A DNA stretch of 44,590 nt. Origin: Pirellulaceae bacterium (GTDB taxonomy: Bacteria; Planctomycetota; Planctomycetia; Pirellulales; Pirellulaceae). Below the pieces are notes generated by a model. It was not told the origin of the DNA. It saw nothing but the letters and a program-made list of their open reading frames with translations, and made no database searches. Below, one piece after another: positions 4,002-18,731 of this stretch. Where the stretch lies: NCBI GenBank assembly GCA_022446825.1, contig JAKVBY010000029.1:1-44590 (forward strand). Direction: 5' to 3'. Every line of letters begins with the position of its first letter. The first letter of the stretch is position 1. Made by a program: the position numbers and the translations under genes.

Positions 4002-6620
4002 ATGACTGAGCCTCGGAACATTTCTCCCTTTTTTCCGTACGGCTTTTCCTTGCCTCAAATCACGATCAGGAATTCGACCTATAGGTTTCTCTTGGGCATC
4101 GTCTTCACTTGCGCGGCGCATTGCTCGGCAGCGGATGTTTCGACCATTGAACAACTCTTTAATCAAGGAAACTACGAGGAATGCACACGCGCCGCGCGTG
4201 TCGAAGTCGAACGTGGAGTGTGGAACGAGCGCTGGCCGCGTCTCCTGATGCGCAGCTTATTGGCGACGGGCGAATATACCGAAGCGCTTGCTCGTTACGA
4301 GCATGCGTTGAAACGATATCCCAAAAGCATTCACCTGCGTGTCTTAGGTGCCACAGCCTTGCGATTTAACAACCATATCCTGCGCGCCAAACAAGAAGAG
4401 AACGCCATTCTGGAGATTGTCAGACAAACACCGTGGCGTTACTCCAAGGCCGAAGATCAAATTGCTTTAGGTCGGCATTTCCTTGCACAAGGTGAAGATG
4501 CCAAGCAAGTGCTTGAGCTATTTTTTGACCGTGCCCGCAAAGCACAACCCGAATTCATTGAGTCGTATATCGCTACGGCAGAATTAGCTCTCGACAAGCA
4601 TGATTATCAACTCGCAGCGGAAATGTGCTCCGCAGCCGAAAAGCTGCAACCCAACAACGCCCAGGTAGCTTACTTGATGGCACGTGCATGGTCAGCAAGC
4701 GAGCCTGAAAAATCTCTAGAATCTCTCCAGCAGGCATTAAATTCTAATCCGCGCCATATACCAACCCTGCTATGGCAGGTAGATCATTTCATCGATGCAG
4801 AAAGATATTCCGCAGCGAAGGATCTACTGACATCGATTCTGGAAATAAATCTCTACGAACCCAAGGCTTGGGCTTACCTCTCTGTCATAGCTCACCTCAG
4901 CGGGCAATACCAAGCGCAAAGCATGCTGCGCAAAGCCGCCCTTTGTCGCTGGCCGATGAATCCAGAGGTGGATTACTTGATCGGCACCAAACTTTCTCAA
5001 AAATACCGCTTCGAAGAAAGTGTCATTCATCAACGTCGGGCATTAGTTTTAGATGATTCGTTCCGGCCAGCGAAATTCCAACTGGCTCAGGATTTGTTGC
5101 GACTTGGCGAAGAAGCCGAAGGCTGGGCCCAAGCCCAGGAAGTCCATAGCAATGACGCCTACAACGTGGTTGCTCACAATCTAGTCACGCTTCATGATCA
5201 AATCAGCAAGTTTACCACCATCGAACAGGATGGGTTTATCGTTCGCATGGACAGCCGTGAAGCCAGGATTTACGGCAACCGTGTTTTAGCTTTGCTGCTG
5301 GAAGCCCGCTCCGCGCTTTGTTCCAAATACGATGTAATTCCGCGCGAACCAATTGTGATTGAAATCTTTCCACAACAGAAAGATTTCGCCATTCGTACTT
5401 TTGGACTACCGGGAGGCGCTGGTTTTCTTGGTGTCTGCTTCGGTCGCGTGATCACCATGAACAGTCCGGCTTCACAGGGTGAAACGCCGGCAAACTGGCA
5501 ATCCGTTCTCTGGCATGAGTTCTGCCACGTCGTGACCCTGGAGAAAACTCGCAACAAAATGCCGCGTTGGCTCAGCGAGGGCATTTCCGTATATGAAGAG
5601 CGGCAAAAGGATCTGCGTTGGGGGCAAAGCATGACTCCCCAGTATCGCGAAATGATCTTCAGCGATGCCCTGACGCCTGTCAGCGAACTCAGTAGCGCCT
5701 TCCTAAATCCACCCACGCCCTTACATTTACAATTCGCTTATTTTCAATCATCACTGGTGGTCGAATACTTAATAGGGCAGCACGGACTCGATGCCTTGAA
5801 GCGAGTACTCGAAGATTTAGCACTCGGGATACCAATTAACGAAGCGTTAGAGCGCTCCGTGGGGTCGATGACAGCGTTGAATAACGAGTTTTTCCGTTAC
5901 GCGCGAGAAAAGGCCGCTGCCCTGGCCGCTGATGTCGACTGGAGCCGCGAGCATTTGCCCACACGTCCTAGTCTCGATGAATGGCGCACATGGCTTGGCG
6001 ACCACCCCAACAATTTTTGGGGGTTGCGAGCTTACTCCCTGGCGTTGATCGAAGCGCAGGATTGGAAGACAGCACAAACCGTACTCGAACAGAGAATCAG
6101 GCTGTTTCCAGCAGATCGAGGGCCTGGCAATCCACTTGAACTACTCGCGCAAGTGTATCGAGAACGTGACAATTTGGAGCAAGAACATGTGACCCTTAGG
6201 CAATTAGCAGAACTGAAGGCCGACTCGGTTTCACTTTACCGACGTCTCGCTGAACTTGCCCTGGCAGGTGAGAAGTGGGCTGACGTGTCAACGCATGCAG
6301 AAAGTCTCCTAGCCATCAATCCTCTACTGTCGACAGGGCATGAGTTATTAGCCCAATCAGCGGAACACTTAGGACGTTACCGTGATGTCGCTGTCTCTCT
6401 TCAAGCGCTTGTCGAAATGGATCCTGCCGATCCGGCAAAACTTCATTTTCGTACTGCAACGGCCTATCACCACTTAGGAAACCATCCTGATGCCAAACGC
6501 GAAGTACTCAGAGCCTTAGAAGAAGCGCCGCGTTACCAGGAAGCGCAACATTTGCTGCTGCAGTTGGTGACTGAGGAAACAGAAGTCTCCACGCAAAGCA
6601 CAGGAGCTGGCAAGCCGTGA
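4002..6620 (+). CDS. Exported TPR protein with HExxH metallopeptidase core
   Basis: An 872-aa protein. A positively charged N-terminus and hydrophobic segment ending near ...CAAHCSAADV (about residues 27–44) suggest export. Residues ~45–390 are repeated helical pairs of the TPR type. The middle holds a zinc-peptidase signature, HEFCH at residues 505–509, followed about 20 residues later by LSEGISVYEE, whose glutamate fits the third zinc ligand of gluzincin/peptidase MA-like enzymes. More TPR-like repeats run to the C-terminus. It is the first gene of the operon and overlaps the next start by four bases. A role as an envelope peptidase or as a TPR docking protein is inference; the complete HExxH plus downstream Glu argues for catalytic capacity. 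The start has only a weak ribosome-binding site (GGAT). Confidence 0.85.
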   Translation: MTEPRNISPFFPYGFSLPQITIRNSTYRFLLGIVFTCAAHCSAADVSTIEQLFNQGNYEECTRAARVEVERGVWNERWPRLLMRSLLATGEYTEALARYEHALKRYPKSIHLRVLGATALRFNNHILRAKQEENAILEIVRQTPWRYSKAEDQIALGRHFLAQGEDAKQVLELFFDRARKAQPEFIESYIATAELALDKHDYQLAAEMCSAAEKLQPNNAQVAYLMARAWSASEPEKSLESLQQALNSNPRHIPTLLWQVDHFIDAERYSAAKDLLTSILEINLYEPKAWAYLSVIAHLSGQYQAQSMLRKAALCRWPMNPEVDYLIGTKLSQKYRFEESVIHQRRALVLDDSFRPAKFQLAQDLLRLGEEAEGWAQAQEVHSNDAYNVVAHNLVTLHDQISKFTTIEQDGFIVRMDSREARIYGNRVLALLLEARSALCSKYDVIPREPIVIEIFPQQKDFAIRTFGLPGGAGFLGVCFGRVITMNSPASQGETPANWQSVLWHEFCHVVTLEKTRNKMPRWLSEGISVYEERQKDLRWGQSMTPQYREMIFSDALTPVSELSSAFLNPPTPLHLQFAYFQSSLVVEYLIGQHGLDALKRVLEDLALGIPINEALERSVGSMTALNNEFFRYAREKAAALAADVDWSREHLPTRPSLDEWRTWLGDHPNNFWGLRAYSLALIEAQDWKTAQTVLEQRIRLFPADRGPGNPLELLAQVYRERDNLEQEHVTLRQLAELKADSVSLYRRLAELALAGEKWADVSTHAESLLAINPLLSTGHELLAQSAEHLGRYRDVAVSLQALVEMDPADPAKLHFRTATAYHHLGNHPDAKREVLRALEEAPRYQEAQHLLLQLVTEETEVSTQSTGAGKP

Positions 6621-7462
6621 GTATAAAACGCTTCGCTCTATTTGTTTTTCTTGCGACCGGCCTGATCGCAATTTCTGGAGTCGTTGCCCAACGTAACACG
6701 TTTCGTGGTGGACGCGACTTTGAATGGCAACAGCTGGGCCGCAACGGTGTGCCCGATTGGTCTAGTGATGGTCACTTCGAAAGCGACGTTTTCACTTTTG
6801 TGCGCGTAAAATACGATTCGCACGGCTACGGTCACGGTGGCGGATGGGCCACCGACTTTCGAGATTGTGAGTTAAATTTTTCCTTACGACTACAGCAACT
6901 AACCTCCCTTAAAGTTAACCCCGAGCCCATCGTACTGGAACTCACAGACCCAGACCTCTTCGACTTTCCGTTCATTTACATAATCGAACCAGGTGCCTTG
7001 TTCTTCCGCCCGGACGAAGTCACAGCCCTGCGACGTTACCTGCTTAATGGTGGATTTCTCATGGTCGACGATTTTTGGGGCGAGATGGAATACAACAACT
7101 TCTATGAACAGATCAAACGGGTTTTTCCTGATCGAGAGCCAGAAGAGGTTCCCTTGTCACACGAGATTTTTCACTGCGTGTACGACCTACCTCAAAAACC
7201 ACAGATCCCATCGATCAACGTTGCCCACTGGGGGCAACGGCAAGGAATTACTTGGGAACCGAGACCAACGGATACAAGTACCCCACACTACCAAGCGATT
7301 AAAGACAACAACGGCCGCATCATGATCTTCATTTGTCACAATACAGACCTCGGTGACGGCTGGGAACGAGAAGGCGACAACCAATGGTATTTTGAGGAAT
7401 TCTCCGTCAAGAAAGCATATCCCTTGGGAATCAACATCGTGACTTATGCGATGACCCATTGA
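6617..7462 (+). CDS. DUF4159 domain protein, exported
   Basis: A 281-aa protein beginning at a GTG that overlaps the TGA of the previous gene (GTGA), so translation is probably coupled. A signal peptide (hydrophobic residues ~7–22, ending VVAQ) precedes a DUF4159 domain: LELTDPDLFDFPFIYI, then RRYLLNGGFLMVDDFWG, typical of this glutaminase-amidotransferase-like fold found beside MoxR/vWA genes. The Tyr/Trp-rich region VKYDSHGYGHGGGWATDF near the N-terminus is characteristic of planctomycete homologues. No catalytic Cys–His–Glu triad is evident in the conserved block, so a structural or ligand-binding role is likely. A 52-base gap separates it from the MoxR gene. Confidence 0.85.
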   Translation: MSIKRFALFVFLATGLIAISGVVAQRNTFRGGRDFEWQQLGRNGVPDWSSDGHFESDVFTFVRVKYDSHGYGHGGGWATDFRDCELNFSLRLQQLTSLKVNPEPIVLELTDPDLFDFPFIYIIEPGALFFRPDEVTALRRYLLNGGFLMVDDFWGEMEYNNFYEQIKRVFPDREPEEVPLSHEIFHCVYDLPQKPQIPSINVAHWGQRQGITWEPRPTDTSTPHYQAIKDNNGRIMIFICHNTDLGDGWEREGDNQWYFEEFSVKKAYPLGINIVTYAMTH

Positions 7463-7514: not shown

Positions 7515-8531
7515 GTGAGCAGTCAGATTCAAACTTATGAAGACGAGCAGGAAGTGGTCGAGTTAATTCGAGCTAGTCGCGAACAACTAGACTTTGAGTT
7601 ATCTAAAGTAATCGTGGGTCAAAAGGAGGTGATCGAACAACTCTTTATCAGCTTATTCGCCGGGGGCCATTGCCTGATCACGGGCGCTCCCGGCTTAGCA
7701 AAGACATTACTCGTTCAGTCCATTGCGCAGATATTTCACTTAAAATTTCAACGAATTCAATTCACCCCTGACCTGATGCCAGCGGACATTACTGGCACTG
7801 AAATACTTAGCGAATCTAGCCAAGGCCAGCGTGCGATGGAGTTCATTAAAGGCCCGATCTTTGCCAATGTTATTTTGGCGGATGAGATCAATCGTACACC
7901 GCCGAAAACACAAGCAGCGCTTCTGGAGGCGATGCAAGAACATCAAGTGACAGCCAATGGAACTCGCTTTACCTTGGAAGAACCTTTTTTTGTTCTAGCA
8001 ACCCAAAACCCCATCGAAATGGAAGGGACTTACCCTCTCCCCGAAGCACAACTTGATCGCTTCATGTTCAATGTCTTCATTGACTACCTTCCTATTGACG
8101 ATGAAGTGGCTGTCGTGATGCGCACCACCTCGGAAACGCCCGAGCCAATCAAACCGCTGTTTACTGCAGACGATGTCCTGCGTTTCCATGAGGTTGTTCG
8201 GCGGGTACCCATTGCCGAAGACGTCATTCGTTATGCGGTACGCCTAGCAGCAGCCAGCCGCCCTGGCACGGAAACTGCCGCGGACTTCGTAAATCAATGG
8301 GTGAGTTGGGGGGCAGGGCTGCGAGCCGCACAGACGCTTGCTCTCGGCGCGAAGGCTCGCGCGCTACTGACCGGTCAATCTCACGCTTCCATTGAGGACA
8401 TCCAGGCTTTAGTCCACCCAACTTTTCGCCACCGTATTCTAATCGGCTACAAGGCCGAAGCCGACGGCGTAACAGTGGATGATGTAATCGATCAACTCCT
8501 CGAAACCGTTTCATGCACTCAGGTTGATTAA
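7515..8531 (+). CDS. MoxR-family AAA+ ATPase
   Basis: A 338-aa cytoplasmic ATPase of the MoxR family. Walker A GAPGLAKT is at residues 57–64, Walker B ILADEIN around 120–126, sensor 1 in LATQNPIEMEGTYPLPEAQ, and the QLDRF arginine-finger block follows. The lid helix carries WGAGLRA in place of the usual GASPRA sensor-2 motif; the sensor arginine is kept. MoxR proteins act as chaperone-like remodelers or assembly factors for partners that bind through metal-dependent vWA domains. Here three vWA-type genes follow immediately, the classic MoxR–DUF58–BatA order. The next gene starts three bases after this stop. Confidence 0.95.
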   Translation: MSSQIQTYEDEQEVVELIRASREQLDFELSKVIVGQKEVIEQLFISLFAGGHCLITGAPGLAKTLLVQSIAQIFHLKFQRIQFTPDLMPADITGTEILSESSQGQRAMEFIKGPIFANVILADEINRTPPKTQAALLEAMQEHQVTANGTRFTLEEPFFVLATQNPIEMEGTYPLPEAQLDRFMFNVFIDYLPIDDEVAVVMRTTSETPEPIKPLFTADDVLRFHEVVRRVPIAEDVIRYAVRLAAASRPGTETAADFVNQWVSWGAGLRAAQTLALGAKARALLTGQSHASIEDIQALVHPTFRHRILIGYKAEADGVTVDDVIDQLLETVSCTQVD

Positions 8532-8534
8532 AAG

Positions 8535-9527
8535 ATGGCAGATGACGCCGCAACCATCGATCGGTCAATGCCTGATCAGTTTGACCGTGTCTCGCTGATT
8601 GATCCTGCCGCCTTGATGCGCATTAAAAATTTACAGCTCCGAGCGAAAGTTGTTGTGGATGGGTTCTACAACGGGTTGCATCGCAGCCCTTTTCACGGAT
8701 TCTCTGTAGAATTCAGTGAATATCGGCAATATACACCGGGTGACGACCCGCGATATCTCGACTGGAAATTATTCGCCCGCAGTGATCGCTACTACATCAA
8801 ACGCTTTGAAGATGAAACAAATCGCCGCTGTCATTTGTTGCTCGACATTAGCCGGTCGATGGAGTTTGCTTCGATTACCTACACGAAAGCCGAATATGCC
8901 CGCACACTCGCCGCAACCTTGGCATACTACCTGACCCTCCAAAGAGATAGTGTGGGATTATTGACCTTTGACAATGCCGTTGCCGAATTCATTACGGCAC
9001 GCTCACGCCCTGGCCATCTGCATCACCTTTTGGTTGGCCTGGAACGGGCGAGCCAAGGTAACGGAACCGATTTAAATGCTCCCCTTGAACAAATCGCGTC
9101 ATTCGTAAGCAAACGAGGTCTGATTATTTTCATTTCTGACCTTTTGGCTCCTGTTGATTCTCTTCAGACCAATCTTGGTTACTTGCGTTCTCGCGGACAC
9201 GATGTTTTATTGATTCGCATTCTCGACCCGGCAGAAATTGCCTTGCCACTTAAAGACGCTTCTGTATTTCTAGACTTGGAATCCAAACGGGAAATGTATG
9301 TCGATCCTGAAACCAGTCGGTCTGAATATCGTTCGCGTTTTCAAGCACACGATGAGCAGGTGCAAACGGCATGCACCACACTGGGTATCGACTACACCAC
9401 CCTGCTAACGGATCAGCCACTTGAGCAAGCTTTATTTGACCTTCTCGCCGCTCAACTACGGCAAGGTCGCGTCGCGCGAAGACACCTCCCCACGAGACAC
9501 GCGCAAAGGGGGCATAGCACCTCATGA
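8535..9527 (+). CDS. DUF58 protein with intact MIDAS (vWA-like)
   Basis: A 330-aa protein. The DUF58 signature is clear: GFSVEFSEYRQYTPGDDPR followed by LDWKLFARSDRYYIKRFE. The following vWA-like domain has a complete metal-ion-dependent adhesion site: DISRS (Asp-104, Ser-106, Ser-108), Thr-178 in GNGTDL, and Asp-202 in FISDL. There are no transmembrane segments, so it is expected in the cytoplasm as a partner of the upstream ATPase. The start lies 3 bases after the MoxR stop; the end overlaps the next gene by ATGA. Family knowledge supports an adaptor role between MoxR and membrane vWA proteins; that link is inferred here. Confidence 0.93.
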   Translation: MADDAATIDRSMPDQFDRVSLIDPAALMRIKNLQLRAKVVVDGFYNGLHRSPFHGFSVEFSEYRQYTPGDDPRYLDWKLFARSDRYYIKRFEDETNRRCHLLLDISRSMEFASITYTKAEYARTLAATLAYYLTLQRDSVGLLTFDNAVAEFITARSRPGHLHHLLVGLERASQGNGTDLNAPLEQIASFVSKRGLIIFISDLLAPVDSLQTNLGYLRSRGHDVLLIRILDPAEIALPLKDASVFLDLESKREMYVDPETSRSEYRSRFQAHDEQVQTACTTLGIDYTTLLTDQPLEQALFDLLAAQLRQGRVARRHLPTRHAQRGHSTS

Positions 9528-11632
9528 GCTTTCTTGCCCCTCTCTACGCATTTGCCGCCTTGGCTATCGGTCTGCCATTCCTGTTCCATCTCATCCAGCG
9601 ACGGCCCAAAGGACAAACCCCGTTCAGTTCGTTACTTTTTTTGAACCCCTCGCCACCGCGGCTCACACGACGAAGTCGGCTTGACAATTGGTTGTTATTT
9701 GTACTCCGAGCACTCGCGATCCTGCTACTCGCCACAGCGTTCTCACGGCCTTTATGGCGTTCGCTTACCTTACAATCCGTCACCACCACAGCACGACGCA
9801 CCGTTTTTTTAGTCGACACCAGTGCCAGCATGCAACGTGAAGATCTCTGGCAGCAAGCAACCGCAATCATTGATGAACATCTCCAAGATCTACAACCATC
9901 TGACGAAGTTGCCTTATTCACTTTCAATACAACCGTCCAACCGCTCTTTCTATTTGAAGATTCACGTCGCCTCGAATACACGCAACGAGCAGCTGCAATT
10001 CGCGCTGCCTTGGCCGCAGAAAAACCGGGCTTCGCAACCACCGACCTGGGCGATGCTCTGATGACCGTTGCGGACCTGCTAACGGCAGAACCTGAGAACC
10101 TTAGATCACAAGGGTCCTCGTCACCAGATATCGTTTTAGTGACCGATCTTCAGCAAGGAAGTCAATTAAAACAACTGGAGGGATATCGATGGCCGCAGAA
10201 TATTGCTGTAGACATCCGGCAGCTAAAAGTACGCCAGACCAGTAATGCCAATGCAACGGTAGTCCAAGATTCGGAAGCCATTCAAGCAGCCACAGAAGCA
10301 ATATCCGTTCGCGTACAAAATGCGGCAAATTCTGAGAAGCAGCAATTTCAACTAACCTGGTCTGACCAGGCGGGCGAGCTCACTAAGGCAGCGAGCTATG
10401 ATGTTTTCGTCCCAGCGGGCGAAAGTCGTATTGTGCGCGTAACCAAACCTAAACTAGCCTCCTATCAGCTTCAGTTGATGGGCGATGATCAACCGTTTGA
10501 CAACACCTATTATATTGCCGAACGCGAGGCAGAGGAAAAAACTTTGCTACTTCTGGGTGATCCTTTGCAGGCAGCAAACCGCGAGAGTGCTTTCTACTTT
10601 TTAACGCAAACGCCTTTAAGCACTCCCTTCCAAATTGTCACTCCCCAAGTTGAAGATCCCTCGGCGTCTTTATCCGATCTGAATCCGATCCAAACACCAC
10701 TCGTCGTGACAAATGTGGCATTACCATTGGAATCGGTCGCTCGATTAAAAGACTATTTGGAGAATGGTGGAAACCTCTTGGTGGTCCTAGATCACAAATC
10801 AGATCATTGGCAACCGATGATAGACACACTGCAAATACTGACGGACACTCCAAGTCTGCAGATCGAAGAAACCAAGATTATAGACTATGCGATGCTATCC
10901 AAGATTGATTTCCAACATCCGGTTTTTCAACCATTTGCCGAACCTCAATTTCGAGATTTCACAAAAATTCGATTTTGGGAGCATCGTGAATTGAGCGTTT
11001 CCGAGAAGAGCGACTGGCAAGTTATCGCAAGTTTTGATAACGGTTCCATCGCCTTAGTAGAACAGCGTCAAAAGGCTGGCCACGTATGGATCATGACCAG
11101 TGGTTGGCAGCCGATCCAAAGCCAACTAGCCCTTTCCTCCAAGTTTATTCCCTTACTCGCTGGCATGCTAGAACGAACTCGCAGCCGGTCGCAGTTATTG
11201 ACAAACTATGAAGTGGGGACCGCCGTCACCATGCCTTCTTCAGCAGTCGCGTTGCAGGTTGCAAGCCCACAAGGGAAGCCTACAAATCTTCGCAGCGATG
11301 AGGTCTTCGCAGAGACACGGGTACCAGGCATCTACCACATCACAAGCCCAACCACTCAAAAATCATTTGCCGTAAATCTCGCCGGAGAAGAAAGTCGCAC
11401 CGAGCCTTTGGACGTCACCGAACTCGAAAAGTTCGGAGTGAAACGTCGCACCTCAGAATCGCTTGCCACTCTCCAAGAACGTCAACGAAAAATGCGTGAC
11501 ATGGAACTCGAAACTCGGCAGAAACTTTGGCAGTGGTTGCTATTGATCGTTCTCGTTATTTTAGCAACTGAAACTTTGCTCGCCGGACGTTCGATTAATC
11601 GTCCGAACCTAACAGCAGAGGCCTCAAGCTAG
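9524..11632 (+). CDS. BatA-like membrane vWA protein
   Basis: A 702-aa protein. The N-terminal BatA domain has a first membrane helix (residues ~5–24), the HLIQRRPKG loop and a second helix (~55–75). A vWA domain follows with the MIDAS motif DTSAS at residues 98–102 and a matching aspartate in VLVTDL. The middle is a beta-rich extracytoplasmic-type region, then a DUF4159/amidotransferase-like segment (LKDYLENGGNLLVVLD, HPVFQPF). The C-terminus has a last membrane helix (WQWLLLIVLVILATETLLAGR). It overlaps the DUF58 gene by four bases and ends 12 bases before the next gene. Probably inner-membrane anchored, interacting with MoxR through its vWA domain. Confidence 0.9.
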   Translation: MSFLAPLYAFAALAIGLPFLFHLIQRRPKGQTPFSSLLFLNPSPPRLTRRSRLDNWLLFVLRALAILLLATAFSRPLWRSLTLQSVTTTARRTVFLVDTSASMQREDLWQQATAIIDEHLQDLQPSDEVALFTFNTTVQPLFLFEDSRRLEYTQRAAAIRAALAAEKPGFATTDLGDALMTVADLLTAEPENLRSQGSSSPDIVLVTDLQQGSQLKQLEGYRWPQNIAVDIRQLKVRQTSNANATVVQDSEAIQAATEAISVRVQNAANSEKQQFQLTWSDQAGELTKAASYDVFVPAGESRIVRVTKPKLASYQLQLMGDDQPFDNTYYIAEREAEEKTLLLLGDPLQAANRESAFYFLTQTPLSTPFQIVTPQVEDPSASLSDLNPIQTPLVVTNVALPLESVARLKDYLENGGNLLVVLDHKSDHWQPMIDTLQILTDTPSLQIEETKIIDYAMLSKIDFQHPVFQPFAEPQFRDFTKIRFWEHRELSVSEKSDWQVIASFDNGSIALVEQRQKAGHVWIMTSGWQPIQSQLALSSKFIPLLAGMLERTRSRSQLLTNYEVGTAVTMPSSAVALQVASPQGKPTNLRSDEVFAETRVPGIYHITSPTTQKSFAVNLAGEESRTEPLDVTELEKFGVKRRTSESLATLQERQRKMRDMELETRQKLWQWLLLIVLVILATETLLAGRSINRPNLTAEASS

Positions 11633-11644
11633 AAGGATACTTCT

Positions 11645-14600
11645 ATGGATACTCGCTTGCTCCGCCATATAAACTCCGTGATGGCACGGTTTCGAGCCAT
11701 TCGTTTGTGCGTGGGTCTAGGTATCGTCTGGGCAATTACAGCTATTATTGGGGGTCTACTCTATTCGTCGTCCGAGGAATCATACCTTACCCCACAAGTG
11801 CCTTGGTTAATTCTCGCCGCTGCCGGTGCAATGGGCGTTCTAGTGATTGCGTTCGCTTGGAAATCGTTTCATGACCATCACTGGATCGCCCAACAAATCG
11901 AACGGAAATATCCCGAGTTGAGTGAACGTCTGCTCACCGCAATCGCACTACGGCCGACAGAAGCCGATGGCCAATTTACCTTCTTGCAACGAGAGGTGAT
12001 CGATGCGGCTGTCAAACACGCCTGGGCGCATCCTTGGAAAAAAACTGTCTCTAACAAGCGACTTTTGGGGAGCCACGCTTTCCACCTCATCAGTTTAACT
12101 AGTGTCATTGCCAGCATGACGCTCCTCCTCGGAGCAAAGCCTCCTGCGCCTGAATTCCTTACTGCACAGGGGCCTCAGGAACAAATTCCAGCATCCTTTG
12201 AAATTCTCGTTACACCTGGCAACGCTGAAATTGAACGAGGCTCCAATCTCTTGATCACCGCCAAGTTCTCGGAACGAGAAAATGTGCCTCGTGACGTTTC
12301 CTTAGTCATCCTGCCCGAGGATGGAAATGAAACACGCACGCCAATGGCACAAGGACTTGATGATCCATTATTCGGTGGACACGTTGCAGAAGTTGTCGCT
12401 CCCTTTCGGTATCGCATCGATTTTGCCGATCGCCAATCAGAATCTTACTCGATTGGTGTTTTTGAATTTCCCGAAATGTTGCGAGCGGATGCCCAGCTCG
12501 AGTTTCCAAGTTATCTCAATCTCGCTGACAAATTAGTCGAAGACACGCGCCGCATTAGTGCCGTGGAAGGTACCAAGGTCACCTGGATATGTCAGCTCAA
12601 TAAAATCGTCGCAAGTGCCGCACTTGTAACACAACAAGGGGATCAGCTACCGCTGGTATTGTCACAGTCCACACCACATCAGTATTCAATCAGTGTGACA
12701 TTACAGAAGTCTACACGCTGGACCGTACAACTGACCGATCACGAAGGCCGTGCGAACAAACATCCACCAGAACTCATCGTTAAAGTGCTGCCCAATCGCG
12801 TACCAGAAGTCAAGTTAGTATCCGCTAGTGACACCCAGGTTTCACCGATCGAAGAATTGCTTGTCCAAGCAAGTGTCCAAGATGACTACGGCCTAAATCA
12901 ATACGGCATCTCCTACGGCCTTGCCGGAACACCGCTAAATAACGTCGTCTTAGGAGAAGCGACCGCGCGAAAAGAACGCCGGGACATAGAGCATTTATTG
13001 GATTTTGAGGCCATGCATGCCGAGCCCGATCAGCTCCTGTCCTATCACTTTTGGGTCGAGGACTTTGGGCCGGACGGCGCTATCCGGCGCGTGCTCAGTG
13101 ACATCTTTTTTGCTGAAGTGCGACACTTTGAAGAAATATTTCGGCAAGGCGAACAACCACCTGCTGAACAACAACAACAACAACAACAATCCGACAGCCA
13201 GAATCGCCAACAGGCACAGCAATTAGGAGAGCTGCAAAAACAAATCATTAATGGCACATGGAACGTTATCCGACGCGAACTCGCGGATTCCCTGACCGAC
13301 AAATATACGGACGACGTGGCGTTACTGCTCGAATCACAAACCGCGGCCATACAGCAAGTCGAGGAACTTGCCTCGCAAATTGAAGATGCCGAATCACTTC
13401 AACACGTCGATAGCGTTCGAGGGCATATGCAACAAGCGATTGCCGAATTAAAGAGCGCTTTAACACCTTCATTCGAAAATCTAGAGTTGGCCTTAGCAGC
13501 GGAGCAAGCAAGCTATCAAGGATTACTCAAACTACGTGCACGGGAGCATGAGATCATAGAGAGTCAAAGCTCGCAATCACCGAATAGCAGTTCGAGTAGT
13601 GCTTCTCGCCGCTCGCGCGAACAATTGCAGGAATTAGAATTAAAAAATGACGACAATCGTTACGAAACGGAACGACAAGCAGAGACCGAGGAGGACGAAA
13701 CGCAACGAGAATTGCGTCAAATTCTAAGTCGCCTCCGCGACCTAGCTCGACGGCAAGAAGATATCAATGAGCAACTAAAAGAACTCGAAGCTGCGTTGGA
13801 AGCAGCCGAAACTGAAAAAGAGGAAGAGGAACTTCGGCGGCAGTTAAAACGACTGCGCGAGCAGCAGGAAGAAATGCTGCGAGATACGGACGAGTTGCTC
13901 GATCGCATGGATCAAGCGGACAATCAGCCACAAATCGACGAATCACGCCAACAACTCGAAGAAACGCGAGAGAACGTCCGACAATCAGCAGAATCCATGG
14001 AGGAGCAGGACGTTTCCCAAGCGCTTTCTGCTGGTACACGTGCTGAGCGCGAATTTGAAGATATTCGAGACGAATTTCGACAGGAAGCGGCAAGCCAATT
14101 CGAGGATGTCATGCGCGACATTCAACAACAAGCGCGAACGCTTGACGAAAATCAAAAGACCATCGGTCAGCAACTTGCCGAGTTGAATCGCCCTCAAGAA
14201 GCAAGCTTGCGCGATCCCAGCCAACGTGAACAAATCCGTCAAGGCTTTGAGCAACAACAACAGCAACTGAATGATTTGCTAGAGCAGATTCAAGATACCG
14301 TTCAAGAAGCAGAAGAACCTGAACCACTACTTGCGCAGAATTTGTACGATTCGTTTCGAAATACAACACAAGAACGTACGCAAAACAACCTCGAGGCCGC
14401 AACCGACTTAATACAACGGGGGTTCGACTCACAAGCGAAGCAGTTGGAAGAAGCCGCTCGCGAAAGCATTTCTACTTTACGAGAGGGAATTGAAAAAGCG
14501 TCAGACAGTCTTCTCGGTGACCCTACGGATGCTCTCCGGCAGGCCGCTTCAGAACTCGACAAACTTACACAACAACTGAACGAAGAGATCGATCGATCGG

Positions 14601-15364
14601 ATCCTCAGAGGCAAGACACCGGAGATGCGCGACGACAGTCGCCAGCGAGTCAGCGTGCGGAGGACCGTGAGCTCGCCGAAAATGCTGACTCCGTTCAAGA
14701 AGAATCCACCGAGTCTGCGTCACCGAGTACGGAACCTGCCAACCAATCGGATCCCAACAAGGAAACTTCCGATCCACAAGAGTCCAGTCGAACGGGCGAA
14801 AATCCATCGCAAACTTCAGCGGAATCGGAATCGGAGCAACCCACGGCAGGGCAGGGGAGATCGTTAACAGATCCCCCATCGACCACGAACCCTCAAAACA
14901 GTCCAGAATCAGCGCCACTTCAGGAAACACCTAACTCGGAAAATCGCTTGCCACCTGGCTCTGTCGCGCCACGACAGAACAGTGAAGGATTTGAAGGCTT
15001 TGCTACCGACACCCAACGTTTGGCGCCCTTAACCGGCGACAATTATCGTGACTGGACCGACCGATTGCGAGATGTTGAGGAAATGATCGAAGACCCCGAG
15101 TTACGCGGCGAGGCCGCGCGGATACGCGATCGAATGCGTGGCTTCCGGCAAGAGTTCAAGCGACATTCAGAAGAGCCGCAATGGTCTCTCGTACGAAAAA
15201 TGGTTGCTCAGCCTCTGGAGGAACTGCGAGGACTGGTTGCGGAGGAATTGCTGCGGCGTTCAGCAGAACGCCAAGAACTCGTCCCCATCGACCGTGATCC
15301 TGTACCTCAAGAATTCACGGACCGTGTTCGCCTCTACTACGAACAACTGGGGATTGGCAACTAA
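11645..15364 (+). CDS. Large membrane protein with DUF4175-like N-terminus and long coiled coil
   Basis: A 1239-aa protein, the largest in the window. Two hydrophobic segments (residues ~20–42 and ~52–72) bracket a short loop, and a third lies near 152–172. The stretch IERKYPELSERLLTAIAL between the second and third resembles DUF4175-type proteins. Residues ~180–480 look like extracytoplasmic beta domains. From ~500 to ~1000 the sequence is Glu/Gln/Arg-rich with heptad-like character, including eight consecutive Gln. A Ser/Glu/Pro/Asn-rich linker (~1000–1110) leads to a compact charged C-terminal domain. It ends TAATG, sharing one base with the next start. A scaffold linking membrane to periplasm is likely. 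Function is unknown; the DUF4175 name is tentative. Confidence 0.8.
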   Translation: MDTRLLRHINSVMARFRAIRLCVGLGIVWAITAIIGGLLYSSSEESYLTPQVPWLILAAAGAMGVLVIAFAWKSFHDHHWIAQQIERKYPELSERLLTAIALRPTEADGQFTFLQREVIDAAVKHAWAHPWKKTVSNKRLLGSHAFHLISLTSVIASMTLLLGAKPPAPEFLTAQGPQEQIPASFEILVTPGNAEIERGSNLLITAKFSERENVPRDVSLVILPEDGNETRTPMAQGLDDPLFGGHVAEVVAPFRYRIDFADRQSESYSIGVFEFPEMLRADAQLEFPSYLNLADKLVEDTRRISAVEGTKVTWICQLNKIVASAALVTQQGDQLPLVLSQSTPHQYSISVTLQKSTRWTVQLTDHEGRANKHPPELIVKVLPNRVPEVKLVSASDTQVSPIEELLVQASVQDDYGLNQYGISYGLAGTPLNNVVLGEATARKERRDIEHLLDFEAMHAEPDQLLSYHFWVEDFGPDGAIRRVLSDIFFAEVRHFEEIFRQGEQPPAEQQQQQQQSDSQNRQQAQQLGELQKQIINGTWNVIRRELADSLTDKYTDDVALLLESQTAAIQQVEELASQIEDAESLQHVDSVRGHMQQAIAELKSALTPSFENLELALAAEQASYQGLLKLRAREHEIIESQSSQSPNSSSSSASRRSREQLQELELKNDDNRYETERQAETEEDETQRELRQILSRLRDLARRQEDINEQLKELEAALEAAETEKEEEELRRQLKRLREQQEEMLRDTDELLDRMDQADNQPQIDESRQQLEETRENVRQSAESMEEQDVSQALSAGTRAEREFEDIRDEFRQEAASQFEDVMRDIQQQARTLDENQKTIGQQLAELNRPQEASLRDPSQREQIRQGFEQQQQQLNDLLEQIQDTVQEAEEPEPLLAQNLYDSFRNTTQERTQNNLEAATDLIQRGFDSQAKQLEEAARESISTLREGIEKASDSLLGDPTDALRQAASELDKLTQQLNEEIDRSDPQRQDTGDARRQSPASQRAEDRELAENADSVQEESTESASPSTEPANQSDPNKETSDPQESSRTGENPSQTSAESESEQPTAGQGRSLTDPPSTTNPQNSPESAPLQETPNSENRLPPGSVAPRQNSEGFEGFATDTQRLAPLTGDNYRDWTDRLRDVEEMIEDPELRGEAARIRDRMRGFRQEFKRHSEEPQWSLVRKMVAQPLEELRGLVAEELLRRSAERQELVPIDRDPVPQEFTDRVRLYYEQLGIGN

Positions 15365-17736
15365 TGTTGGACGACGGATTCTTTCGCTTACTCCCGAACG
15401 AAATCGGCGCCCCGGACTGGGTCATTCCTGCCGTAGTCGTTGCGTTTGTGATCGCAGCAATCACCTCTTGGAGTTATTGGAGAACCCAGGCGGCTTCCCT
15501 TCCGATCAAAGGATTTGCAGCCAGCGCCAAAATCATCGGTGTAGCCATCATCTGCCTTTGTCTCGTCAACCCTTTAAATCGCGATCTCCGTCCACGTAAA
15601 GGAGAGAATGCTTTCGCGATCTTGGTCGACAACAGCAAAAGCATGCGGATCACACATCCCGACAATTCCGCTGACGCTGCAGGCGAGATTAGTGCAATGT
15701 TAAAACAAACATCTCCTTGGCGGGCAAGGCTCGAAGAAGACTTTGACGTGCGCACCTATGCCTTCGATGCCCGCGTCCAGGGCATTACTGAAAACGTTCC
15801 CTTGAACTTTGACGGAAACGTATCTTCATTGCGTGAATCCCTACAAACCATTACCAAACGATTTACCCGTTTACCGCTCTCTGGAATCTTGTTGTTTAGT
15901 GATGGCAATGCGACCGATCTTACGGGAAACGTCAATCCCTGGGAAAACATGACTGTACCGGTTTTTCCTGTCATCAGGTCATCTGTAGCAACTCTGCGAG
16001 ATGTTGGCATTGAGAATATTTCAACAAGTCAAACGAATTTCGAAGCAGCTCCCGTCACCATTGACGTCACAGTTCGTTGTCTAGGAGTGAAGGACCACCG
16101 AATCATCGTACAGCTCATCGATGATCAAAAAACGGTCGTCCAAGCAGAGTCTGTCACACCAACCACGGCGGATGAAAGACTTGAGGTTCGATTTCGATTT
16201 CGCCCACAAGCCGGCACTGTCAGTTTCTATCATGTACAAGCTTTTCTGAAGTCTGAAGAAACCACTTTTCAGACCAACACCTCTCAAATCGAAGTAACCC
16301 TGAAAAACAACTCCCGCCCCGTCGTCGTCGATCGTGGGAATGGACCATTTCGTGTCCTTTATGTTGCCGGTCGCCCGAATTGGGAATTCAAATTCATTCG
16401 TCGTGCCCTGCAGGAAGACGACGAAATCCAATTGGTCGGTCTGTTACGAATTGCGCGCCGAGAAGCAAAATTCAGTTTTCGAGACAAATCTGTCGACTCA
16501 GCAAATCCGCTGTTCCAAGGATTTAAGCGTGATGATGAAGAGAGCGAAGGCTATGCGGAACCCGTGCTCGTTCGACTGGGGATCGAAAATGACGACGAGT
16601 TACGCGGGGGCTTCCCTAAATCTACCGATCAGTTATTTGCCTACCATGCCATCATCCTGGATGATATCGAAGCGGAATTCTTCAACCCCGACCAATTACA
16701 ATTGTTGCGGCAGTTTGTGAGTACTCGCGGCGGTGGGTTATTGATGTTGGGTGGCCAAGAATCGTTTGTTAACGGTGGCTACGCCCAAACTCCGCTCGGT
16801 GAACTGTCACCCGTTTACCTGGACAAGAACTCTGACCAAGCGGCGGCAGGGCCTTATCGTTTTGACCTGACACGCGAAGGGTGGCTGCAGCCATGGATGC
16901 GAGTCCGCTCAACGGAAACTGCTGAACGAAAACGACTCGCAGGAACGCCCCAGTTTGAAACCTTGAACCCAGCCAGCCAAATCAAACCTGGGGCATCGGT
17001 CCTCGCAACGGTTCAGACAACCAACGGCACGCACTTCCCTGCTTTAGCAGTTCAACGATTTGGCAAAGGTCGTTCTGCCGCACTTCTTGTCGGTGACATG
17101 TGGCGTTGGGCAATGCACCGCCAGTACGATGACGATCGCGATTTGGAACAGGCTTGGCGACAGTCCATTCGTTGGATGGTCGCGGACGTTCCTCGTCGAA
17201 TGGAAGTTCGCGTCAAGCAAACCGACAAGCCTGACCGTCCATTGAGTCTCGAGCTGACTCTGCGGGATGAAGAATTTGAACCGCTGAACAATGCCACGGT
17301 TCATTTCACTATTACCAATCCAAATGAAGAAATAGTCGATCTTTCCGCAGAAGCCAGTGACCGTGAAGCAGGCCTCTATGTAGCTCAGTTCTGGCCACAA
17401 GATTCGGGCGCTTATCACCTTCGTGCTTCAGCCGTTGGAGCGGATGGTGCAGACCTCGGCACCCGCCAAACTGGATTTGCCGCCGAACCGGATGCGGAAG
17501 AATTGCACTCCCTGCAGACCAATCGAAAAATACTCGATACGCTGGCAACGCAAACCGGTGGTGAAATCCTCACTTCGAATGAATTAGACACTTTCGTCAC
17601 AGAGTTGCCACAGCGAGAGAATGTGGTTACTGAACATTGGGTTTCCCCGTATTGGCACCAACCCTGGGTGCTAACGCTCGCTATGGTGCTTCTGTGTGCA
17701 GAATGGGGGTTAAGACGTTGGAAGGGATTACCATGA
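15364..17736 (+). CDS. Membrane vWA protein with amidotransferase-like region
   Basis: A 790-aa protein with two N-terminal membrane helices (residues ~18–38 and ~55–70), then a vWA-like domain with DNSKS (89–93) and SGILLFSDGNATDL. Beta-sandwich sequence follows. Residues ~425–485 (AIILDDIEAEFFNPDQLQ, then GGGLLMLGGQESF) match the class I glutamine-amidotransferase-like fold seen in many planctomycete vWA proteins, without an obvious catalytic cysteine. A final membrane helix lies at the C-terminus (WVLTLAMVLLCAEWGLRRW). The start overlaps the previous stop by one base and the end overlaps the next start by ATGA. It probably forms a membrane complex with the BatA-like and coiled-coil proteins. 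Confidence 0.9.
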   Translation: MLDDGFFRLLPNEIGAPDWVIPAVVVAFVIAAITSWSYWRTQAASLPIKGFAASAKIIGVAIICLCLVNPLNRDLRPRKGENAFAILVDNSKSMRITHPDNSADAAGEISAMLKQTSPWRARLEEDFDVRTYAFDARVQGITENVPLNFDGNVSSLRESLQTITKRFTRLPLSGILLFSDGNATDLTGNVNPWENMTVPVFPVIRSSVATLRDVGIENISTSQTNFEAAPVTIDVTVRCLGVKDHRIIVQLIDDQKTVVQAESVTPTTADERLEVRFRFRPQAGTVSFYHVQAFLKSEETTFQTNTSQIEVTLKNNSRPVVVDRGNGPFRVLYVAGRPNWEFKFIRRALQEDDEIQLVGLLRIARREAKFSFRDKSVDSANPLFQGFKRDDEESEGYAEPVLVRLGIENDDELRGGFPKSTDQLFAYHAIILDDIEAEFFNPDQLQLLRQFVSTRGGGLLMLGGQESFVNGGYAQTPLGELSPVYLDKNSDQAAAGPYRFDLTREGWLQPWMRVRSTETAERKRLAGTPQFETLNPASQIKPGASVLATVQTTNGTHFPALAVQRFGKGRSAALLVGDMWRWAMHRQYDDDRDLEQAWRQSIRWMVADVPRRMEVRVKQTDKPDRPLSLELTLRDEEFEPLNNATVHFTITNPNEEIVDLSAEASDREAGLYVAQFWPQDSGAYHLRASAVGADGADLGTRQTGFAAEPDAEELHSLQTNRKILDTLATQTGGEILTSNELDTFVTELPQRENVVTEHWVSPYWHQPWVLTLAMVLLCAEWGLRRWKGLP

Positions 17737-18731
17737 GAGGTGTGATTCATCTGTTCCGTGGTTTGGCAACCCTGTGGGTTGGTGTCGTAGTCAATGGTTT
17801 GACATCGTACCCCGTCGCTGCCGGTGAACAGCAAAACGCTGAGATAATGGTCATCGTCGGTGCCTCGGGTGCGCCGGAATACGCGAAACCGTTTCAAACA
17901 TGGTCGGAACGTTGGCGTCTTGCAGCCGAGGCCGGCAACACCACCTTCCATAAAATTGGCAACTCCACCGACAGCGACACATCAGATCACACACAGCTCG
18001 AGCAGTTCCTCAAGAAGGCTACAACTCTTGAGAGTAAGGCACCTTTATGGCTCGTCCTCATCGGACATGGAACTTTCTTTCGTGACACCGCAAAATTCAA
18101 TCTTCGTGGTCCCGACATATCGGCCAAGGAATTGAATGAATGGCTCAAATCTCTCCAACGCCCCTTGGTAATTGTGAATTGTTCGTCAGCAAGCGGACCT
18201 TTTATCAATCAGCTTTCTGCAACAAATCGTGTAATCATCACCGCAACCAAAAGTGGCGCAGAACACAATTACTCTCGGTTTGGTGACTATTTATCCCAAG
18301 CCATCACAGACATGGCAGCCGATGTGGATCATGATCAACAGGTGTCATTACTCGAAGCTTTTTTGAGCGCTGCACATTCCGTAGCGCGTTTTTATGAAAA
18401 TGATTCACGTTTGGCGACTGAACACCCGTTACTCGAAGACAACGCCGATGGCATGGGAACCCCTGCCAACTTTTTTCGTGGCATTCGTGCGGTACGGTCA
18501 GCGAAACAAGGGGCACAAATTGATGGTACGTGGGCGCACCAATTTCATCTTCAATTAACGCCCGACTCAATACCCTTTAACCCCGAACAACTCGCCGAAA
18601 GAAAACATCTCGAATCACAAATTGAGGCACTGCGGCAAAAGAAATCGCAAATGAGCGAAGACGCTTACTATGCGGAACTCGAGGCGTTCCTGTTACCTCT
18701 AGCTCAGCTATACGCCAGCAGTAAAAAATAA
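17733..18731 (+). CDS. Small secreted caspase-like (clan CD) putative peptidase with Ca-loop-like motifs
   Basis: A 332-aa protein. The ATG at 17733 overlaps the previous stop (ATGA) and has GGAAGGGA upstream, preferred over an upstream in-frame ATG inside the preceding gene. A signal peptide (residues ~1–30) is present. The core resembles clan CD cysteine peptidases: IMVIVGASG, then LIGHG with His-112, then a hydrophobic strand running into VIVNC with Cys-150 and SSASG. Residues 197–208 (DVDHDQQVSLLE) fit an EF-hand-type calcium loop with acidic ligands at 1, 3, 5 and 12; DNADGMG (236–242) is a second loop-like acidic motif. The C-terminal ~75 residues are helical and charged. It closes the MoxR–vWA operon. 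Fold and catalysis are inferred from motifs only; a non-peptidase caspase-fold protein is possible. Confidence 0.7.
   Translation: MRGVIHLFRGLATLWVGVVVNGLTSYPVAAGEQQNAEIMVIVGASGAPEYAKPFQTWSERWRLAAEAGNTTFHKIGNSTDSDTSDHTQLEQFLKKATTLESKAPLWLVLIGHGTFFRDTAKFNLRGPDISAKELNEWLKSLQRPLVIVNCSSASGPFINQLSATNRVIITATKSGAEHNYSRFGDYLSQAITDMAADVDHDQQVSLLEAFLSAAHSVARFYENDSRLATEHPLLEDNADGMGTPANFFRGIRAVRSAKQGAQIDGTWAHQFHLQLTPDSIPFNPEQLAERKHLESQIEALRQKKSQMSEDAYYAELEAFLLPLAQLYASSKK

Follow-up and report, generated by a model that had tools for sequence, protein, structure and literature searches.

We asked whether the last gene of a MoxR-vWA operon in a Pirellulaceae bacterium encodes an active protease, and if not, what its product may contribute to the proteins encoded beside it. 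An earlier note, made from the letters of the window (the whole stretch of 44,590 nucleotides that was analysed), had proposed a secreted, calcium-controlled caspase-like enzyme with a His-112/Cys-150 dyad, and had taken it for a new type of regulated bacterial protease. The placement of the gene was correct. In a Pfam scan, with domains assigned by Pfam models only, the operon order was TPR/peptidase-MA, DUF4159, MoxR, DUF58, BatA, DUF4175-like, GATase1/vWA and, last, the caspase-like gene. From DUF4159 onward, the genes are the following:

6617–7462, + strand: DUF4159 protein, upstream of MoxR on the same strand
7515–8531, + strand: MoxR AAA+ ATPase
8535–9527, + strand: DUF58/vWA protein
9524–11632, + strand: BatA-type vWA membrane protein
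11645–15364, + strand: large coiled-coil membrane protein, weakly DUF4175-like
15364–17736, + strand: membrane protein that combines a GATase1-like domain with a vWA-like motif (DNSKS) and immediately precedes the next gene, with an ATGA overlap
17733–18731, + strand: predicted exported caspase-fold pseudoprotease of 332 aa, last gene of the module (open reading frame bounds exact)

The ATG of the caspase-like gene overlaps the TGA of the preceding gene within the ATGA at 17733–17736, an arrangement that looks like that of a translationally coupled operon. The DUF4159 gene likely belongs to the module as well; a literature search of titles and abstracts found no paper that treats DUF4159 together with MoxR. 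The DUF4175-like protein is 1239 aa long, rich in glutamine and acidic residues, and has no good family model. Just upstream of the DUF4159 and MoxR genes, positions 4002–6620 of the window encode a TPR protein with a Peptidase_MA_2 domain, which from its domain content is a possible candidate for the active protease of this neighbourhood.

The association of these genes extends well beyond the source genome (6.17 Mb in 153 contigs, 94% complete), in which no second copy of the caspase-like gene was found. Among loci from planctomycetes and verrucomicrobia with enough upstream sequence, 68 of 73 have the GATase1/vWA gene directly upstream on the same strand. Across 60 related genomes, the caspase-like, GATase1/vWA (E<1e-100) and DUF4175-like genes are all present in one set of 33 and all missing from the other 27 (Fisher p 1e-17, a value that ignores the shared ancestry of the 60 genomes). 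BatA was found in the same 33 genomes, plus one extra weak match, and a close MoxR (at least 68% identity) is listed in 31 of the 33 carriers and in none of the others. We had considered that co-occurrence might be peculiar to the pair formed with GATase1/vWA, and rejected this; since the DUF4175-like and BatA genes co-occur as well, the unit is the whole module. In a genome assembled as one contig (G010), the caspase-like gene lies about 500 kb from GATase1/vWA and both are still present. Because the module is co-inherited even where its genes have moved, the caspase-like gene is a standing part of it, a constant component of a MoxR-DUF58-BatA-DUF4175-like-GATase1/vWA module that is gained and lost as a unit.

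The protein itself carries the features listed below, with residue counts taken from 132 distinct homologues unless the earlier set (n=81) is named:

17733–17828, + strand: N-terminal signal-like region, residues about 1–32 (pLDDT <50)
18063–18071, + strand: GHG with His-112 (His in 132/132)
18180–18182, + strand: Cys-150 (Cys 95, Thr 19, Ala 7, Gly 7, Ser 3, Asn 1)
18186–18188, + strand: Ser-152, the clan CD nucleophile position (Ser 117, Ala 14, Pro 1, never Cys)
18192–18194, + strand: Ser-154, counterpart of the Ser in C-x-S-G (132/132)
18321–18356, + strand: EF-hand-like loop DVDHDQQVSLLE, residues 197–208, then helix 206–223 (from prediction and conservation)
18438–18458, + strand: second acidic loop DNADGMG, residues 236–242 (Asp-236 and Asp-239 invariant in 81/81 of the earlier set)
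18582–18728, + strand: C-terminal helical hairpin (helices 284–302 and 309–331), outside the clan CD core in the predicted structure

All the motifs described by the earlier note (LIGHG with His-112, VIVNC with Cys-150 followed by SSASG, the 197–208 loop and DNADGMG) are present where it had placed them, and they are not chance resemblances, because His-112, Ser-154 and the loop acids are near-invariant among the homologues. Its prediction of secretion also held, in that 71 of 74 homologues with complete starts have a hydrophobic, signal-like N-terminus by a crude hydropathy test.

The expectation of a clan CD fold was confirmed by structure prediction and comparison. An AlphaFold2 model built on a 53-sequence alignment (pLDDT 85, pTM 0.81) is a caspase-like alpha/beta sandwich, with beta-4 at residues 145–152 and the next helix starting at 155. 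The nearest solved folds in VIA-align were metacaspase-4 (Z 17.3; 204 residues, 3.0 Å) and legumain (Z 17.2; 193 residues, 2.7 Å), with caspases too among the matches listed, and the top Foldseek match was the caspase Dronc (E 2.8e-7). Identity to legumain and metacaspase-4 is about 12–13% over the aligned core, and unlike these two enzymes the protein has no active-site Cys. Sequence models were far less informative. The protein passed no model in Pfam or NCBIfam, and PADLOC likewise returned nothing. Its score against Peptidase_C13 (PF01650), the legumain family, was under the curated cut-off (13.5 vs. 22.8 bits, E 0.053), and Peptidase_C14 (PF00656) gave no match. Searches of PDB sequences with either the protein or the family alignment as query found no true relatives; in the PDB, metacaspases were reached only when distant relatives, or a profile built from their group, served as query. 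One of these distant relatives, the Cys-bearing L147, does pass the Peptidase_C13 cut-off (28.4 vs. 22.8).

Homologues were found in 33 of the 60 related genomes, the source genome counted (E ≤ 0.001), mostly at 40–53% identity, and a scan of genome records with the family alignment gave at least 526 matching stretches. The best 80 of these loci are, by record title, mostly from planctomycetes (Planctomycetales, Pirellulaceae, Phycisphaerales, Sedimentisphaerales) and verrucomicrobia (Pedosphaera, Opitutaceae and others). A quick tree placed 26 sampled members in one clade (SH-aLRT 100). Judged by these matches, members occur in both planctomycetes and verrucomicrobia, and neither Pfam nor NCBIfam has a name for the family; no paper on it or on its MoxR/BatA module was found among titles and abstracts.

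The central question is then which residue occupies the nucleophile position. A search of the phylum yielded distant relatives with intact motifs, namely SACGSDGF (L147), SACCSDSF (L148), MCGSDGL (L152) and NPCHSGGF (L153). When the family was aligned by hhalign to the L146–L152 group, in whose profile the first member (L147) carries the Cys, the match was strong (E 6.7e-38) and VIVNCSSASGPF fell opposite ALIHSACGSDGF without a gap, so that Ser-152 stands opposite the Cys of the relatives. The L146–L152 profile, and L153 alone, in turn align to Arabidopsis metacaspase-4 with the nucleophile position opposite Cys139, which is changed to Ala in structure 6w8r (C139A). Ten clan CD relatives that carry the Cys, aligned separately, gave the same register (hhalign E 7e-12), with C-x-S-G opposite S152-x-S154-G155 and a one-residue gap at 151. 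We had also considered Cys-150, which seems plausible on inspection, as the nucleophile on the basis of the Pfam C13 match and rejected it, as the profile-profile alignments point to 152. His-112 was correctly recognised by the earlier note as the catalytic-type His, in an H-G motif after beta-3. Alignment of homologues thus upheld the His and the loop acids of the original proposal and failed Cys-150 as a dyad partner, which is Thr, Ala, Gly, Ser or Asn in 37 of 132. Active clan CD peptidases have a Cys at the end of beta-4; here, that position is Ser, Ala or Pro in every homologue. Since none of the 132 has a Cys at 152, the protein is best read, from its sequence relationships, as a pseudoprotease lacking the catalytic Cys, and the claim of protease activity was not sustained. 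The case shows how readily a Cys close to a His can make a bacterial caspase-like protein pass for a protease.

The reading that we favour (probability roughly 0.7) is that the protein is an exported, Ca2+-bound clan CD pseudoprotease and a constant component of the MoxR/BatA membrane module. The ancestral catalytic Cys at position 152 would have been replaced by Ser or Ala, and the His-loop, conserved groove residues and one or two calcium-type loops would have been retained. The predicted calcium loops may bind Ca2+ and stabilise the domain, and the old substrate groove may still hold a peptide or partner segment without cleaving it; we infer that the dead active site could act as a peptide-binding adaptor for the module. 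The C-terminal helical hairpin (284–331) might dock, from the periplasm, onto the membrane proteins of the module, with MoxR remodelling the complex from the cytosol. The protein would in that case serve in the periplasm as a subunit for recognition or assembly, and the MoxR/vWA machinery would sense or remodel its state. MoxR/BatA modules occur widely, and little is known of what they do at the molecular level; an exported subunit with a dead caspase fold that is always present would offer a concrete handle on them, through what the retained groove holds.

The invariance of His-112 despite the lost Cys is unusual and counts against a purely structural relic. A bolder proposal, which we regard as improbable, is that the protein is, throughout planctomycetes and verrucomicrobia, a Ca2+-dependent peptide-recognition subunit by which the module senses or assembles envelope proteins, or else a non-cysteine Ser-His enzyme; the latter would be out of the ordinary in clan CD. 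With a Ser in the nucleophile position beside an invariant His, activity is conceivable in principle, against the pseudoprotease reading. It seems rather unlikely, however, that Ser-152 (or Ser-154) and His-112 form a dyad that replaced Cys-His in a serine-based hydrolase. Such a dyad would fit the complete conservation of His-112 and Ser-154 and the Ser found at 152 in 117 of 132 homologues, but position 152 is Ala or Pro in the other 15 with the His kept, and the 14 members with Ala argue against a Ser nucleophile. Moreover, Ser-154 corresponds to the Ser of C-x-S-G, which is present in most Cys-bearing relatives too, and clan CD peptidases normally lose their activity when the Cys is mutated to Ser.

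Less probable still is a role outside the module, in which the protein would regulate a genuine clan CD protease of that cell in a dominant-negative manner. The logic is known for cFLIP-L and TbMC4 (PMC6426788), but no Peptidase_C14 or Peptidase_C13 match was detected in the source genome (94% complete), and the gene tracks the MoxR/BatA module instead. It is very unlikely that His-112 and Cys-150 form the dyad of an active, calcium-controlled cysteine protease: the clan CD fold, the invariant His and the Cys kept in 95 of 132 homologues are compatible with such an enzyme, but Cys-150 is lost in the remainder with His, Ser-154 and loop acids intact, and the alignments place the nucleophile of Cys-bearing relatives at 152 instead of 150.

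In the favoured pseudoprotease reading, the loop at 197–208 would retain a binding role, and it is strongly conserved. Positions 1, 3, 5, 9 and 12 are Asp in 132, Asp in 131, Asp in 130, Ser in 132 and Glu in 132 of the 132 homologues, respectively; these ligands stood, and position 7, also proposed as a ligand, is partly degenerate (Gln in 107 of 132). The pattern D-x-D-x-[DN]-x-x-x-[ST]-x-x-E and the subsequent helix in the model are those of an EF-hand-like loop. Comparison with other proteins showed that this loop is no evidence for a new regulatory type, as all ten Cys-bearing clan CD relatives have an EF-hand-like loop in register with 197–208 (e.g. DANRDGKITLLE and DTNSDGMVALSE). Bacterial clan CD proteins with such a loop (among them L186, L188, L190, L191, L194–L196, L198) differ from the present family in keeping Cys at 152, in C-x-S-G or close variants. 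Since the loop is common to bacterial clan CD proteins, the predicted Ca2+ site is more likely to have a structural role than to act as a dedicated switch. For some orthocaspases of archaea, too, EF-hand motifs have been described (PMC6426788).

Neither pseudo-orthocaspases nor dead caspase domains in MoxR-vWA systems are new as concepts, and the present family is a variant of them. Kaur et al. (2020, PMC7159879) found that about 70% of the effector-position caspase domains in MoxR-vWA systems are catalytically inactive, and suggested peptide-binding or dominant-negative roles for them. Their ternary (VMAP) systems resemble ours in placing a caspase-superfamily domain in a MoxR-vWA setting. 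However, the caspase domain there occurs mostly as a fusion with VMAP or vWA proteins, whereas the protein described here is stand-alone and exported, and those systems are named by a third component (VMAP, iSTAND, FtsH or beta-propeller) in contrast to the BatA/DUF58/GATase1 module; the main text of that paper makes no mention of DUF58, BatA, DUF4159, C13 or legumain. Cyanobacteria and other bacteria have pseudo-orthocaspases, and the pseudo-metacaspases TbMC1 and TbMC4 are reported to carry HS and YS substitutions (PMC6426788). Our protein shares with these a clan CD p20-like fold with a substituted catalytic residue (Cys to Ser) and presumed inactivity. The pseudo-orthocaspases of that report have Tyr/Ser, whereas our family has an invariant His and Ser or Ala in place of the Cys; the main text of that report does not refer to planctomycetes.

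Four sister-group proteins (L147, L148, L152 and L160) retain Cys-152. In the three loci read upstream (L147, L148 and L152), the same GATase1/vWA gene lies directly upstream, which suggests that some versions in loci of this type may be active. L152 and L160 keep the Cys and have lost the calcium-loop acids, so that Cys and loop can be lost independently in that group. A second related group (L031–L035, L169 and L202) has GH[SA] and T-P-x-S-G or similar, no Cys, and intact acidic loops. Its member L032 adjoins a second MoxR-DUF58-BatA set, L034 is near a GATase1-like gene, and L031, L033 and L035 are near WD40 or DUF1501 genes. Finally, weak profile matches (E 1e-6 to 1e-8) at G252:C31:65815-66117, G296:C15:10499-10789 and G349:C150:3619-3915 fall in very long open frames of about 1400–1520 aa, and are perhaps fused caspase-like domains.
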